From NCBI RefSeq assembly GCF_900103645.1, contig NZ_FNHP01000010.1, positions 62,001 through 126,000 of the forward strand: DNA of 64,000 nt, written 5' to 3'. Origin of the DNA: Oryzisolibacter propanilivorax (GTDB taxonomy: Bacteria > Pseudomonadota > Gammaproteobacteria > Burkholderiales > Burkholderiaceae_C). This document shows, in pieces, positions 15,226 to 59,722 of this stretch. A model generated the notes under the pieces. The model was not told where the DNA came from, ran no database searches, and was given only the letters and a program-made list of their open reading frames with translations. How positions within the stretch are numbered: position 1 is the stretch's first letter; the number at the start of each line of letters is the position of its first letter. The position numbers were made by a program, and so were the translations under genes.

Positions 15226-15636
15226 ATGAAGAACTACCAATCCGTCGTCCCGATCCGCCCGCCCGCGCCGCAGCGCCAGGCCACGGGGCTGCATTTGATC
15301 GGCGACCTGTACGGCTGCCTGTGCGACAGCCGCCTGATGCTGGACGCCGACCATCTGGAAAACTTCTGCAAGGAGCTGGTGGCGGCCGCGGGCCTGACCA
15401 CCGTCGGATCGCTGTTCCACAGCTTCGGAGAGGGCGGCGGCGTGACCGGCGCCGTGGTGCTGGCCGAATCGCACTTGGCCATCCACACCTGGCCTGAGTC
15501 GGGCTACGTGACGCTGGACGTCTACGTCTGCAACTACACCGAGAACAACCGCCCCAAGGCGCAGAAACTGTTCGACGACCTGCAGGCCGCCTTCAACCCG
15601 GCCGACCCGCACCTGCACACCGTCGACCGCGCATGA
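15226..15636 (+). CDS. speD: SpeD, S-adenosylmethionine decarboxylase proenzyme
   Basis: 136 residues, the small prokaryotic (class 1B, Thermotoga-like) type. It self-cleaves at the serine of ESHLAIHTWPE (S82 from this start) to make the pyruvoyl cofactor, then makes decarboxylated SAM, the aminopropyl donor for spermidine. GLHLIGDLYGC and the C-terminal DVYVCNYTENN fit the family. The ATG at 15226 (MKNYQS) is preferred to an upstream in-frame ATG at 15202, which lies inside the leader hairpin. It overlaps speE by four bases (ATGA). Confidence 0.94.
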   Translation: MKNYQSVVPIRPPAPQRQATGLHLIGDLYGCLCDSRLMLDADHLENFCKELVAAAGLTTVGSLFHSFGEGGGVTGAVVLAESHLAIHTWPESGYVTLDVYVCNYTENNRPKAQKLFDDLQAAFNPADPHLHTVDRA

Positions 15637-16610
15637 GCGGCGCGACGCCCTCCCCAGCCGGCACGCCGGCCGCGGCGCCGCGCTACGTCGCCGAGCGCCT
15701 GAACGCCGACTTCGGCCTGTACCTGTCGGCCGGCGCGCCGCTGGCGCAGGCGCAATCCGAGTGGCAGCGCATCGAGATCTTCGAGAACCCGCAGTTCGGA
15801 CGCGTGATGCGCATCGACGACGTATTCATGACCAGCGAGCGCGACGAATTCTTCTACCACGAGCCGATGGTGCACCTGCCGGCCATCGCCCACCCGGGGG
15901 TCAAGCGCGCCCTGGTGGTGGGCGGCGGCGACGGCGGCGCGGCGGAAGAACTGCTGAAACTGCCCGGCATCGAGCGCGTGGTGCTGGCCGAGCTGGACGG
16001 CGCGGTGGTCGAGATGGCGCGCCAGTGGCTGCCCGGCATCCACCGCGGCGCGCTGGACGATGCGCGCCTGCAACTGCGCCTGGGCGATGCGCGCGCCTTC
16101 CTGGCCGAGACCGACGAGCGCTTCGACCAGATCGTGCTGGACCTGACGGACCCGTTCGGCCCGGCGGTCGAGCTGTACACGGTGGAGTTCTACCAGTCGT
16201 GCCGGCGCGCCCTGAACCCGGGCGGCGTGCTGTCGCTGCACTTGGGCTCGCCGATCCACCTGCCCGAAACGCTGACGCGCATCGCCGCGTCGGTGCGGGC
16301 CGTGTTTCCGGTGTTCCGACCCTACCTGCAGTACGTGCCGCTGTACGGCGCGCTGTGGTGCATGGGCATGGCCTCGGACACGACCGATCCGGCGCGGCTG
16401 TCGGCGGGCGAGGTCGATGCGCGCATCGCCGCGCGCGGCATCGGCGATCTGCAGCTGTACAACGGCGCCATGCACCAAGCGCTGCTGGCGCAGCCGAATT
16501 TTCTGCGCGAGTTGCTGGCGCGGCCGGCGCGGGCGCTGCATACGGGCGATACGCTGGATGAGGTGCGCGATCCGGCGGAACTGCCGCCGATCCGGGTGAT
16601 GGCGGGCTGA
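15633..16610 (+). CDS. speE: SpeE, spermidine synthase (polyamine aminopropyltransferase)
   Basis: 325 residues. It transfers the aminopropyl group made by SpeD to putrescine. The SAM-like binding motif VVGGGDGGAAEELLK, the YHEPMVHLP segment, and the catalytic region VLDLTDPFGPA are clear. It is translationally coupled to speD. The N-terminal 20 residues are an Ala/Pro-rich extension. Cytoplasmic. Confidence 0.94.
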   Translation: MSGATPSPAGTPAAAPRYVAERLNADFGLYLSAGAPLAQAQSEWQRIEIFENPQFGRVMRIDDVFMTSERDEFFYHEPMVHLPAIAHPGVKRALVVGGGDGGAAEELLKLPGIERVVLAELDGAVVEMARQWLPGIHRGALDDARLQLRLGDARAFLAETDERFDQIVLDLTDPFGPAVELYTVEFYQSCRRALNPGGVLSLHLGSPIHLPETLTRIAASVRAVFPVFRPYLQYVPLYGALWCMGMASDTTDPARLSAGEVDARIAARGIGDLQLYNGAMHQALLAQPNFLRELLARPARALHTGDTLDEVRDPAELPPIRVMAG

Positions 16611-16667
16611 GCGGGCGGGCGTCTGCCTTGCTGCTGTGACGCAGTAGCAGGGCCGGCCTAGGTTTAT

Positions 16668-16725
16668 GCCGCTTCTACTTTGATAGCTGCCGGGTATTTA
16701 TTGATCGAGGCTCGGGCTGTTTTTA
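16668..16725 (+). repeat. Dispersed repeat, copy R3 (left flank of the palindromic island)
   Basis: Contains TTTGATAGCTGCCGGGTATT followed by TATTGATCGAGGCTCGGGCT. It faces the reverse copy R4 at 17568-17618, so the two bracket the inverted-repeat element between them. Confidence 0.75.
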
Positions 16726-16740
16726 TTGTTGGTTGTTGAG

Positions 16741-17537
16741 TTGACTGCGGGGGCCGGGACTCGCCCCGGCGGGCGACCTCCTTTTCTTGCTCGCACAAGA
16801 AAAGGAGGCAAAAGAAGTGCGCCCCCCGCAGGCTGCGTCCCCCACGCGCTGTCGCGCGTGGGGGCAACCTGTCTCGGGGCGCTGGCGGGGTGCGCTGCGG
16901 AACTCACTTCGCGCCTTCAAGCGCTTCGTTCAAACAACTGCGGCCAGTCAGATGACGAAGCATGGGCGCTGCGACGCCCATGCCCCCCCGCCAGCGCCCC
17001 GAGACAGGCGCGGCCTTTGAAGGGGGTGGTGGGGAGAGGGAACAGCCAAACAGCCGGGACAGCCGCACCGCGTGGTCTTCACTCCCTCTCCCGCAGGGCG
17101 GGAGAGGGCTGGGGTGAGGGTGGGAGGGCTGGTACAGGCGCAGCGCCCGAACCATCACCCCCTCACCCCTGCCCTCTCCCCCTGACGGGGGCGAGGGAGC
17201 AAGAGGGCCGCTGTCTGTCATCAGGCCGCGCGCAGCGCCGGCCTCTCCCCGCTCCCGCCTTCGCCCCTTTAAGGCTGCGCCTGGGGCGGGGCGCTGGCGG
17301 GGGGGCATGGGCGTCGCAGCGCCCATGCTTCGTCATCTGACTGGCCGCAGTTGTTTGAACGGAGCTGCGCAGCAGCGCAGTGAGTTCTGCGGCCCACCCC
17401 GCAAGCGTCCCGCCCCAGGTCTGCCCCTTCGCGCCAGCGAAGGGGTCGCAGCCGTGGGGCCGTGTTCTTTGCTTCCTTTCTTGCACGAGCAAGAAAGGAA
17501 GTCGCCCGCCGGGGCGAGTCCCGGCCCCCGCAGTCAA
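16741..17537. repeat. Large imperfect inverted-repeat element between speE and lolD
   Basis: The left arm (16741-17023) and right arm (17264-17537) are near reverse complements: both begin at the outside with TTGACTGCGGGGGCCGGGAC, and both contain CAGTTGTTTGAAC or its complement, the segment around GCATGGGCGCTGCGACGCCC, and CGCCAGCGCCCCG. Embedded hairpins include CCTCCTTTTCTTG paired with CAAGAAAAGGAGG (16777-16808) and its counterpart at 17472-17501. The centre (17090-17197) holds two opposed REP-like units, CCCTCTCCCGCAGGGCGGG and GCCCTCTCCCCCTGACGGGG. Flanked by R3 and R4. About 1000 bases from 16611 to 17612 hold no supportable gene. Confidence 0.8.
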
Positions 17538-17567
17538 AACAAAATCAACACCAAAACCGAAAAAAAC

Positions 17568-17618
17568 AGGAAAAACTGCCTCACGCCCCGATAAACAAAG
17601 GGCCGTTAGCTATCACCC
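17568..17618 (-). repeat. Dispersed repeat, copy R4 (right flank, reverse orientation)
   Basis: On the minus strand reads GATAGCTAACGGCCCTTTGT followed by TTATCGGGGCGTGAGGCAG. It is the mirror partner of R3. It ends directly before the 3' end of lolD. Confidence 0.7.
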
Positions 17619-18308
17619 CTGTAGCACCTCCCCCGACGCCAGCCGCACCACCCGATCACACCTCCCCGCCAGCTGCTCGTCATGCGTCACCATGACGAAC
17701 GCCGTCCCCCGCTCCCGTGCCAGCCCCAGCATCAACGCGAACACCCCATCCGCCGTCCCCCGGTCCAGATTCCCCGTTGGCTCATCGGCCAGCACGCACG
17801 CCGGCTGGGTGACCAGCGCGCGCGCGATCGCCACGCGCTGGCGCTCGCCGCCCGACAGCTCGGCCGGGCGGTGCTGCACGCGCCCAGCCAGGCCCACGGC
17901 CTGCAGCATCTGCTGCGCCTGCGCCGCGCACTCGGCCGGCGCCAGGCGGCGGATGCGCAGCGGCATGGCCACGTTGTCCAGTGCGCTGAACTCGGGCAGC
18001 AGGTGGTGGAACTGGTAGATGAAGCCCAGGCGCTGGTTGCGCAGCCGGCCCTGCTCGGCGGGCGACAGCGCGCCCAGGTCCTGGCCCTGCAGCAGCACGC
18101 GGCCGCTGGTGGGCGCGTCCAGACCGCCCAGCAGGTGCAGCAATGTGCTCTTGCCCGAGCCCGAGGCGCCGACGATAGCCAGCGTCTCGCCGGCGCGCAC
18201 GGACAGGTCCACGCCCTTGAGCACGGTCACGTCCAGCCGCCCCTCCTGGAAGCGCTTGGTCAGGCCGCCGGCCTGCAGCACCACATCGTGGGTCAGGGTC
18301 TCACTCAT
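17613..18308 (-). CDS. lolD: LolD, ATP-binding subunit of the lipoprotein release system
   Basis: 231 residues of the MacB/LolD ABC family. Walker [10 protein letters not shown], signature LSGGERQR, Walker [12 protein letters not shown], and [18 protein letters not shown], the Lol motif region. With LolC/E it extracts lipoproteins from the inner membrane and hands them to LolA. Its start overlaps the end of lolC by eight bases. Confidence 0.94.
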
Positions 18309-37329: not shown

Positions 37330-37397
37330 TCAGGCTCAAATCGGCCGTATGCCCTGATGGAATACTGGCCTCTAGCTATCAAAAACATAGTGAAGCC
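37330..37397 (-). repeat. Dispersed repeat, copy R8 (reverse orientation)
   Basis: On the minus strand reads CTATGTTTTTGATAGCTAGA, then GGCCAGTATTCCATCAGGGC. It separates pyrB from pyrX, whose start codon lies just downstream. It is followed by GCCCGC-cttttcaat-GCGGGC, a small hairpin. Confidence 0.7.
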
Positions 37398-59664: not shown

Positions 59665-59722
59665 CGACTGTTTTGATAGCTGCCAGCCGTTGATCCATAT
59701 GGGCTCAAAGCAGATTTCATAC
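59665..59722 (+). repeat. Dispersed repeat, copy R11 (overlaps the rarD 3' end)
   Basis: Reads TGTTTTGATAGCTGCCAGCC then GTTGATCCATATGGGCTCAA. It follows the YqaA-type gene directly and extends into the last codon and stop of the opposing rarD gene. Confidence 0.75.

Follow-up and report, generated by a model that had tools for sequence, protein, structure and literature searches.

The imperfect palindrome of about 0.94 kb at positions 16679-17615 of the window (the whole stretch of 64,000 nucleotides from Oryzisolibacter propanilivorax that was analysed) is probably, at a rough probability of 0.6, one copy of a MITE-like, apparently non-coding composite palindrome that was spread by insertion and is kept by recombination between its copies. 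It occupies the gap between a speE-like and a lolD-like gene, which are convergent. The piece 16600-17650 gave an inverted self-match of 545 bits, compared with no more than 32.8 bits in 50 dinucleotide shuffles of the piece; when 58 further pieces of 1051 bp from the window were scored, the best reached 45.5 bits. Positions 16721-17556 were 76% identical to their own reverse complement over 875 columns, with a symmetry centre at about 17.14 kb. The arms thus align as inverted copies in the self-comparison that the earlier note had proposed as a check, and the inverted pairs listed below agree with its description of facing layers nested about one centre at this place. The outermost layer is a unit of the GATAGCT type; going inwards, it is followed by a short stem, an arm of about 270 nt and an inverted pair of BoxC/triplex motifs, and each arm is a multi-hairpin unit in its own right. 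The earlier note had named the layers as a dispersed repeat, a 275-283-base element and REP-like units; the nesting was retained, while the layers themselves were redefined, the outermost being of the GATAGCT type, the arms about 273 and 263 nt long and the central units triplex motifs. The features, with positions in the window, are as follows.

15633-16610, + strand: spermidine-synthase-like (speE-like) gene (PF01564), reading toward the element
16679-16727, + strand: outer repeat unit of the GATAGCT type on the left side (inner boundary placed by eye)
16736-16752, + strand: left outer stem, complementary to 17526-17542
16753-17025, + strand: left arm, type X, a folded unit of about 273 nt (inner end set by eye)
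16777-16808, + strand: left-arm hairpin CTCCTTTTCTTG/CAAGAAAAGGAG (helix 3, both-side changes in 9 of 12 pairs)
17084-17120, + strand: first BoxC/intrastrand-triplex motif (pattern match, CCCTCTCCC centre)
17160-17197, - strand: second BoxC/intrastrand-triplex motif, inverted (pattern match, CCCTCTCCC centre)
17224-17243, + strand: may be left over from a central palindrome of the GGCCGAGC type, as present in other genomes (not scored as GGCCGAGC type)
17263-17525, - strand: right arm, type Y, a folded unit of about 263 nt (inner boundary placed by eye after the arm of locus L029)
17526-17542, - strand: right outer stem, part of the outer inverted pair
17566-17615, - strand: right outer GATAGCT-type unit (inner end set by eye), containing the lolD stop codon
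17613-18308, - strand: ABC ATPase gene, lolD-like (PF00005; next gene PF12704/PF02687), reading toward the element
16736-16784 with 17494-17542: outer inverted pair, 94% complementary
16778-16807 with 17472-17501: hairpin inverted pair, 80%
16923-17045 with 17243-17365: first inverted pair of the arms, 87%
16860-16912 with 17375-17427: second inverted pair of the arms, 77%
17100-17128 with 17152-17180: inverted pair of the centre, 86%

The ATPase gene at 17613-18308 is presumably lolD, a name suggested by its neighbour gene, and its stop codon lies inside the outer GATAGCT repeat at 17608-17615. Open frames overlapping the island were 124-212 aa long, and none of the four gave a Pfam match at E 0.01. 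Exact copies of TTTTGATAGCT were also observed elsewhere in the window at 37374-37384 and 59671-59681, and six sites were found when up to one mismatch was allowed, compared with 0.09 expected.

In the genome from which the window derives (3.7 Mb in 24 contigs), 27 stretches matched the left arm and were spread over nine sites, namely seven facing pairs including that of the window, one single arm with a triplex centre (L034) and one miniature of 160 bp in which just the first hairpin and the outer units are present (L035). Among the facing pairs, L030 had no triplex centre. At least three paired elements per genome were found in the congeners G003 and G004, and the presence of the same architecture in these two genomes, each a single-contig assembly, indicates that misassembly is an unlikely source of the palindrome at this place. 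A first-look search gave no match of the left arm in the congeners G001 (840 contigs) and G002, the latter showing only the triplex centre among the matches listed. At the family level, 78 of 200 genomes matched the left arm in whole or in part when up to three candidates were scored in each, and at the class level 38 of 369 genomes matched a short arm when up to two candidates were scored. A scan of a collection of 84,980 species with an exact 24-mer yielded 97 loci, mainly from Variovorax, Acidovorax, Comamonas, Zoogloea, Sulfuritalea, and Rhodocyclaceae or unclassified proteobacterial MAGs. Altogether there were 102 motif copies, 71 of them with at least 1 kb of room on the inner side. A facing partner, with at most five mismatches and within 2.5 kb, was present in 47 of these 71, mostly at a spacing of 420-660 bases; a partner in diverging orientation was observed in 1 of 88 copies and one on the same strand in 2 of 71. 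Single arms, which the earlier note had suggested looking for, do occur: they were found at one of the nine sites of the own genome, and 24 of the 71 copies elsewhere had no facing partner within the above limits, although some of these do have a more diverged one (e.g. L114). In five genomes (G005, G072, G098, G300 and G509), arm matches started no farther than about 100 bases from the beginning of a contig, which suggests that assemblies may break at these palindromes.

The fold of the arms was investigated on sequences containing no N, with a recognisable 3′ end and a length of 200-285 nt, a filter that kept 119 of 178 distinct arms. Fold statistics were taken from an alignment of the window arm with 27 of the 30 non-redundant long arms (L101, L107 and L143 omitted) and not from a second alignment of 21 of the 23 short arms (L093 and L169 omitted); a 20-arm alignment made earlier was exploratory. 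On the resulting 28 arms, 65 predicted pairs were formed in 94.1% of cells and 43 of them showed changes on both sides. Cells with double changes numbered 293, whereas shuffling gave 85 such cells and the slid controls 32-50; the counted structure had been predicted from the same alignment, and the excess over both controls is still large. Predicted-unpaired stretches, such as AACTC and CAAA, were invariant across genera.

Such a pattern would be expected if the arm encoded a conserved non-coding RNA or a structure at transcript ends that is selected as RNA, and the very strong covariation, the conserved predicted-unpaired stretches and the position of the elements at gene 3′ ends all speak for this reading, which we nevertheless consider unlikely. 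No excess of G-U was seen in three counts of G-T versus A-C mispairs (21 versus 36 on 62 pairs, binomial p 0.06; 30 versus 40 at a laxer threshold; 8 versus 13 in 63 distinct first hairpins), though the controls for these counts were poor. Own-genome tRNAs paired by fixed geometry gave 39 versus 21 (Fisher p 0.003), but RNase P (29 versus 25) and tRNAs in the same pipeline (3 versus 19) failed to serve as controls, and the ARAGORN brackets, with 34 G-T of 558 pairs, exclude A-C by design. The absence of a match at gathering score for 17 loci in Rfam 15 likewise argues against a known RNA. A scan of the island at E values up to 5 returned 97 hits, none at its gathering score; these were mostly microRNA models on the central palindrome and were taken as chance. 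Since the pairs are nearly all Watson-Crick, we lean towards a fold that is kept at the DNA level, on counts whose G-T versus A-C controls mostly failed.

Templated repair of the stems would leave the same mark of covariation. A neutral upkeep, in which template switching at the replication fork keeps stems complementary and the covariation reflects copying within hairpins instead of selection, could thus account for the pairing in 94% of cells, the rarity of non-canonical pairs and the many double changes. It would also be consistent with the agreement of the outer ends within elements, which a permutation test supported for the 13 elements of the genus (p 0.0008), weakly for the 11 of the Zoogloea group (p 0.017) and not for the 23 of Variovorax (p 0.49). 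In the outer-stem data, L075 and L140, which are one contig, were counted twice. Copying within hairpins, however, gives no reason for predicted-unpaired stretches to be invariant across genera, and as the full explanation of the arms neutral upkeep also appears doubtful to us.

The relationships between arms point to copying of the whole composite. In all 13 paired elements of three congeneric genomes, each of the 26 arms was closest to an arm at another locus, with identities of 87-99% (some over partial lengths) compared with 72-85% between partners. The left and right arms of the window were 97% and 99% identical, respectively, to arms at other loci and 83% identical to each other. When arms were assigned by eye to types X, Y and Z, every pair was mixed; X was partnered by Y in five pairs of the own genome and by Z in one. 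At each of the seven own sites that carry it (six pairs and the single-arm site), the triplex pair was oriented in the same way with respect to the arm types, and the six other own centres were 91-98% identical to that of the window. Because the arms are closer to other loci than to their partners and the orientation of the centre is constant, the composite appears to have been copied as a unit, and these comparisons suggest that it was probably formed once and then copied, with some later exchange of arms. Locus L032 carries a Z arm in the position that Y holds elsewhere. The case for a single origin is weaker for L032 and L034, whose centres are 91% identical to that of the window, barely above the 88-89% shown by the best two triplex pairs that stand free and match over their full length.

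Among the 56 paired elements, the centre was of the GGCCGAGC type only in 31, triplex only in 3, both in 6 and neither in 16, so that GGCCGAGC-type centres occurred in 37 and the CCCTCTCCC motif in 9. The centre is thus exchangeable across genomes, which supports the idea of insertion for the innermost layer; this layer appears to have been inserted into an older central palindrome or to have taken its place. At L176:318-1280 and L191:1010-2019, long tandem repeats with a period of about 125 bases occupied the space between the arms, and an IS30-like transposase gene (named by eye) was observed between the two first hairpins of a Variovorax palindrome at L120:2530-3749. A build-up at this very place, with layers inserted in turn or an arm duplicated by inversion, would be in keeping with the modular centres, with the IS30-like gene of L120, with the reduced form of L035 and with the facing pair of L030 that has no triplex centre. 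It is nonetheless improbable, as partner arms are less alike than arms of different loci and the centre keeps one orientation at every own site that carries it. The earlier note had offered both repeated insertion and duplication by inversion: the former is supported for the innermost layer, the layers as a whole probably not having arrived successively at this site, and local inversion is disfavoured by the arm identities of the window.

In the four congeners G001-G004, the alignments of speE and lolD ended about 100-150 bp apart and the element was absent from the gap, a short GATAGCT repeat being present in two of the four gaps. In none of 29 other genera was the arm motif found in the surroundings of lolD, searched to a distance of up to 1.5 kb, and speE was not adjacent to lolD there. 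The empty gaps of the congeners together with the motif-free surroundings of lolD support a gain of the element in the own lineage. L127 and L137 were considered as the same gap elsewhere and rejected, as the element there follows lolD and a thioredoxin-like gene (identified by eye) and does not lie in a speE-lolD gap. Other sites are shared. At least two pairs of loci (L030/L061 and L033/L062) have a shared flanking gene beside the element in the own genome and G004, and one flanking gene is common to the own genome, G003 and at least six Variovorax loci (L028, L066, L108, L112, L155, L175, L183 and L189). Sites common to several genera indicate that many copies are old, and movement may therefore be rare.

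At least 33 clusters of sites were obtained, 18 of which were used for comparing own-genome arms with same-site arms; L187 was left out, as were four members of a 12-member cluster in which unrelated flanks are partly chained together. In the genus, arms of the own genome were closer than same-site arms elsewhere in all eight cases tested. In Variovorax, whose copies were incompletely sampled, the own-genome arm was closer in 24 of 41 cases and the same-site arm in 16, with one tie. By these identities, the arms evolve in concert in the genus, and the picture in Variovorax is mixed.

Under the reading that we prefer, in which insertion spreads the composite and recombination among its copies maintains it, the element would enter intergenic gaps behind genes as a unit, in the manner of a MITE, by means of an enzyme acting in trans. 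The copies would then swap arms and centres by recombination or by template switching at extruded hairpins. Near-identical pairs of arms would be lost through the instability of perfect long palindromes, and mixed pairs would survive. A benefit to the host, if there is any, may consist of weak two-way termination of transcription at gene ends.

According to a simple GC3 gene finder, the genes around 47 elements were convergent in 15 cases, tandem in 29 and divergent in 3, the corresponding numbers for 48 junctions of the window being 9, 30 and 9; the two sets did not differ significantly (Fisher p 0.16 for convergent and 0.12 for divergent). At least one neighbouring gene read toward the element in 44 of 47 cases. 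Each arm of the island contains a terminator-like hairpin reading inward, with three sites in total compared with 1.3 expected (sd 1.3), and no promoter-like site was found in the element. Two-way termination at gene ends is a possible function on these predictions.

By class, the island is ordinary, an intergenic palindromic repeat; it is unusual in its size, its fold, its mixed arms and the history of its sites. Its centre contains two matches to the collinear blocks CCCTCNCCC, GGGNGAGGG and GGGGTGAGGG. The BoxC/PIT/TM motif is described in passages of PMC4666352 by the pattern CCCTCNCCC-GGGNGAGGG-GGGGTGAGGG, with five inverted pairs in E. coli K-12, and the two central units fit this triplex motif (TM) and are arranged as such a pair. 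Unlike that motif, the island has arms and caps outside it, and most paired elements have another centre. The abstract of PMC4666352 describes CD and NMR as the means of showing triplex folding; the units of the island match the motif as a sequence pattern. Like REP/BIME sequences, the elements are intergenic, palindromic, multi-copy mosaics, but the passages of PMC4666352 give the REP unit as 20-40 bp, and the arms of the island family are multi-helical and 200-285 nt long. With MITEs the element shares inverted terminal parts, dispersed copies and an empty site in relatives, and it may, like them, be non-coding; it exceeds the size of <200 bp given for MITEs in those passages. Neither a mobility enzyme nor an exact end was found, and no parent transposon or target duplication was seen, the empty sites being too diverged to reveal a duplication. 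The outer GATAGCT unit resembles ATAGCT(N)22CAAAAG, listed as a spaced intergenic motif of Polaromonas in table 7 of PMC5217627, a source whose relevant passages contain no palindromic island. No description of the arms was found in Rfam or in the literature searched, which included few subscription papers. The element looks like an undescribed large relative of the known bacterial palindromic repeats.

That these are REP/BIME sequences moved by a RAYT (Y1) transposase is very improbable: the elements are indeed palindromic, intergenic and multi-copy, and the own genome and G004 have one Y1_Tnp gene each, but the gene of the own genome is bordered by another repeat and not by arms, G003 carries arms with no Y1_Tnp match, and G002 has Y1 pieces with no left-arm match. 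The sole Y1 match of the own genome (L200, G000:C12:377265-377591) has inverted GGGGTCAGATTCCAATT-type repeats as flanks, and a link to RAYT within the genus is thus unsupported.

Two arm pairs in one Rhodocyclaceae MAG enclose AT-rich ORFs, as if bordering a gene cassette. The GC content inside was 0.50 at both, compared with 0.63 for the locus in one (L104:4652-6487) and 0.615 in the other (L110:4850-6139), and none of the enclosed ORFs had a Pfam match at E 0.01. Assorted genes were also observed on the inner side of the single arms L113 (DUF5131 and an IS481-like transposase), L156 (ankyrin repeats), L162, L171 (DUF6804) and L180 (caspase-like); L156 and L171 had inner DNA of higher AT content than the locus, which was hardly so in L113, L162 and L180. 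A bolder reading would make the arms a widespread, undescribed class of folded DNA, consisting of single-stranded hairpins recognised by an enzyme, set head to head with non-identical partners, able to carry genes, as the AT-rich ORFs of the two Rhodocyclaceae elements suggest, and kept at fixed sites through recombination between copies; we regard this as speculative and rather unlikely.

The island thus changes from a one-off oddity into a member of a family of long palindromes that extends across a bacterial family and beyond. These palindromes persist despite the instability generally ascribed to long palindromes, and they may break short-read assemblies. With their mixed partners, their covarying folds and their old sites combined with likeness within genomes, they make the tolerance, spread and repair of palindromes directly testable.
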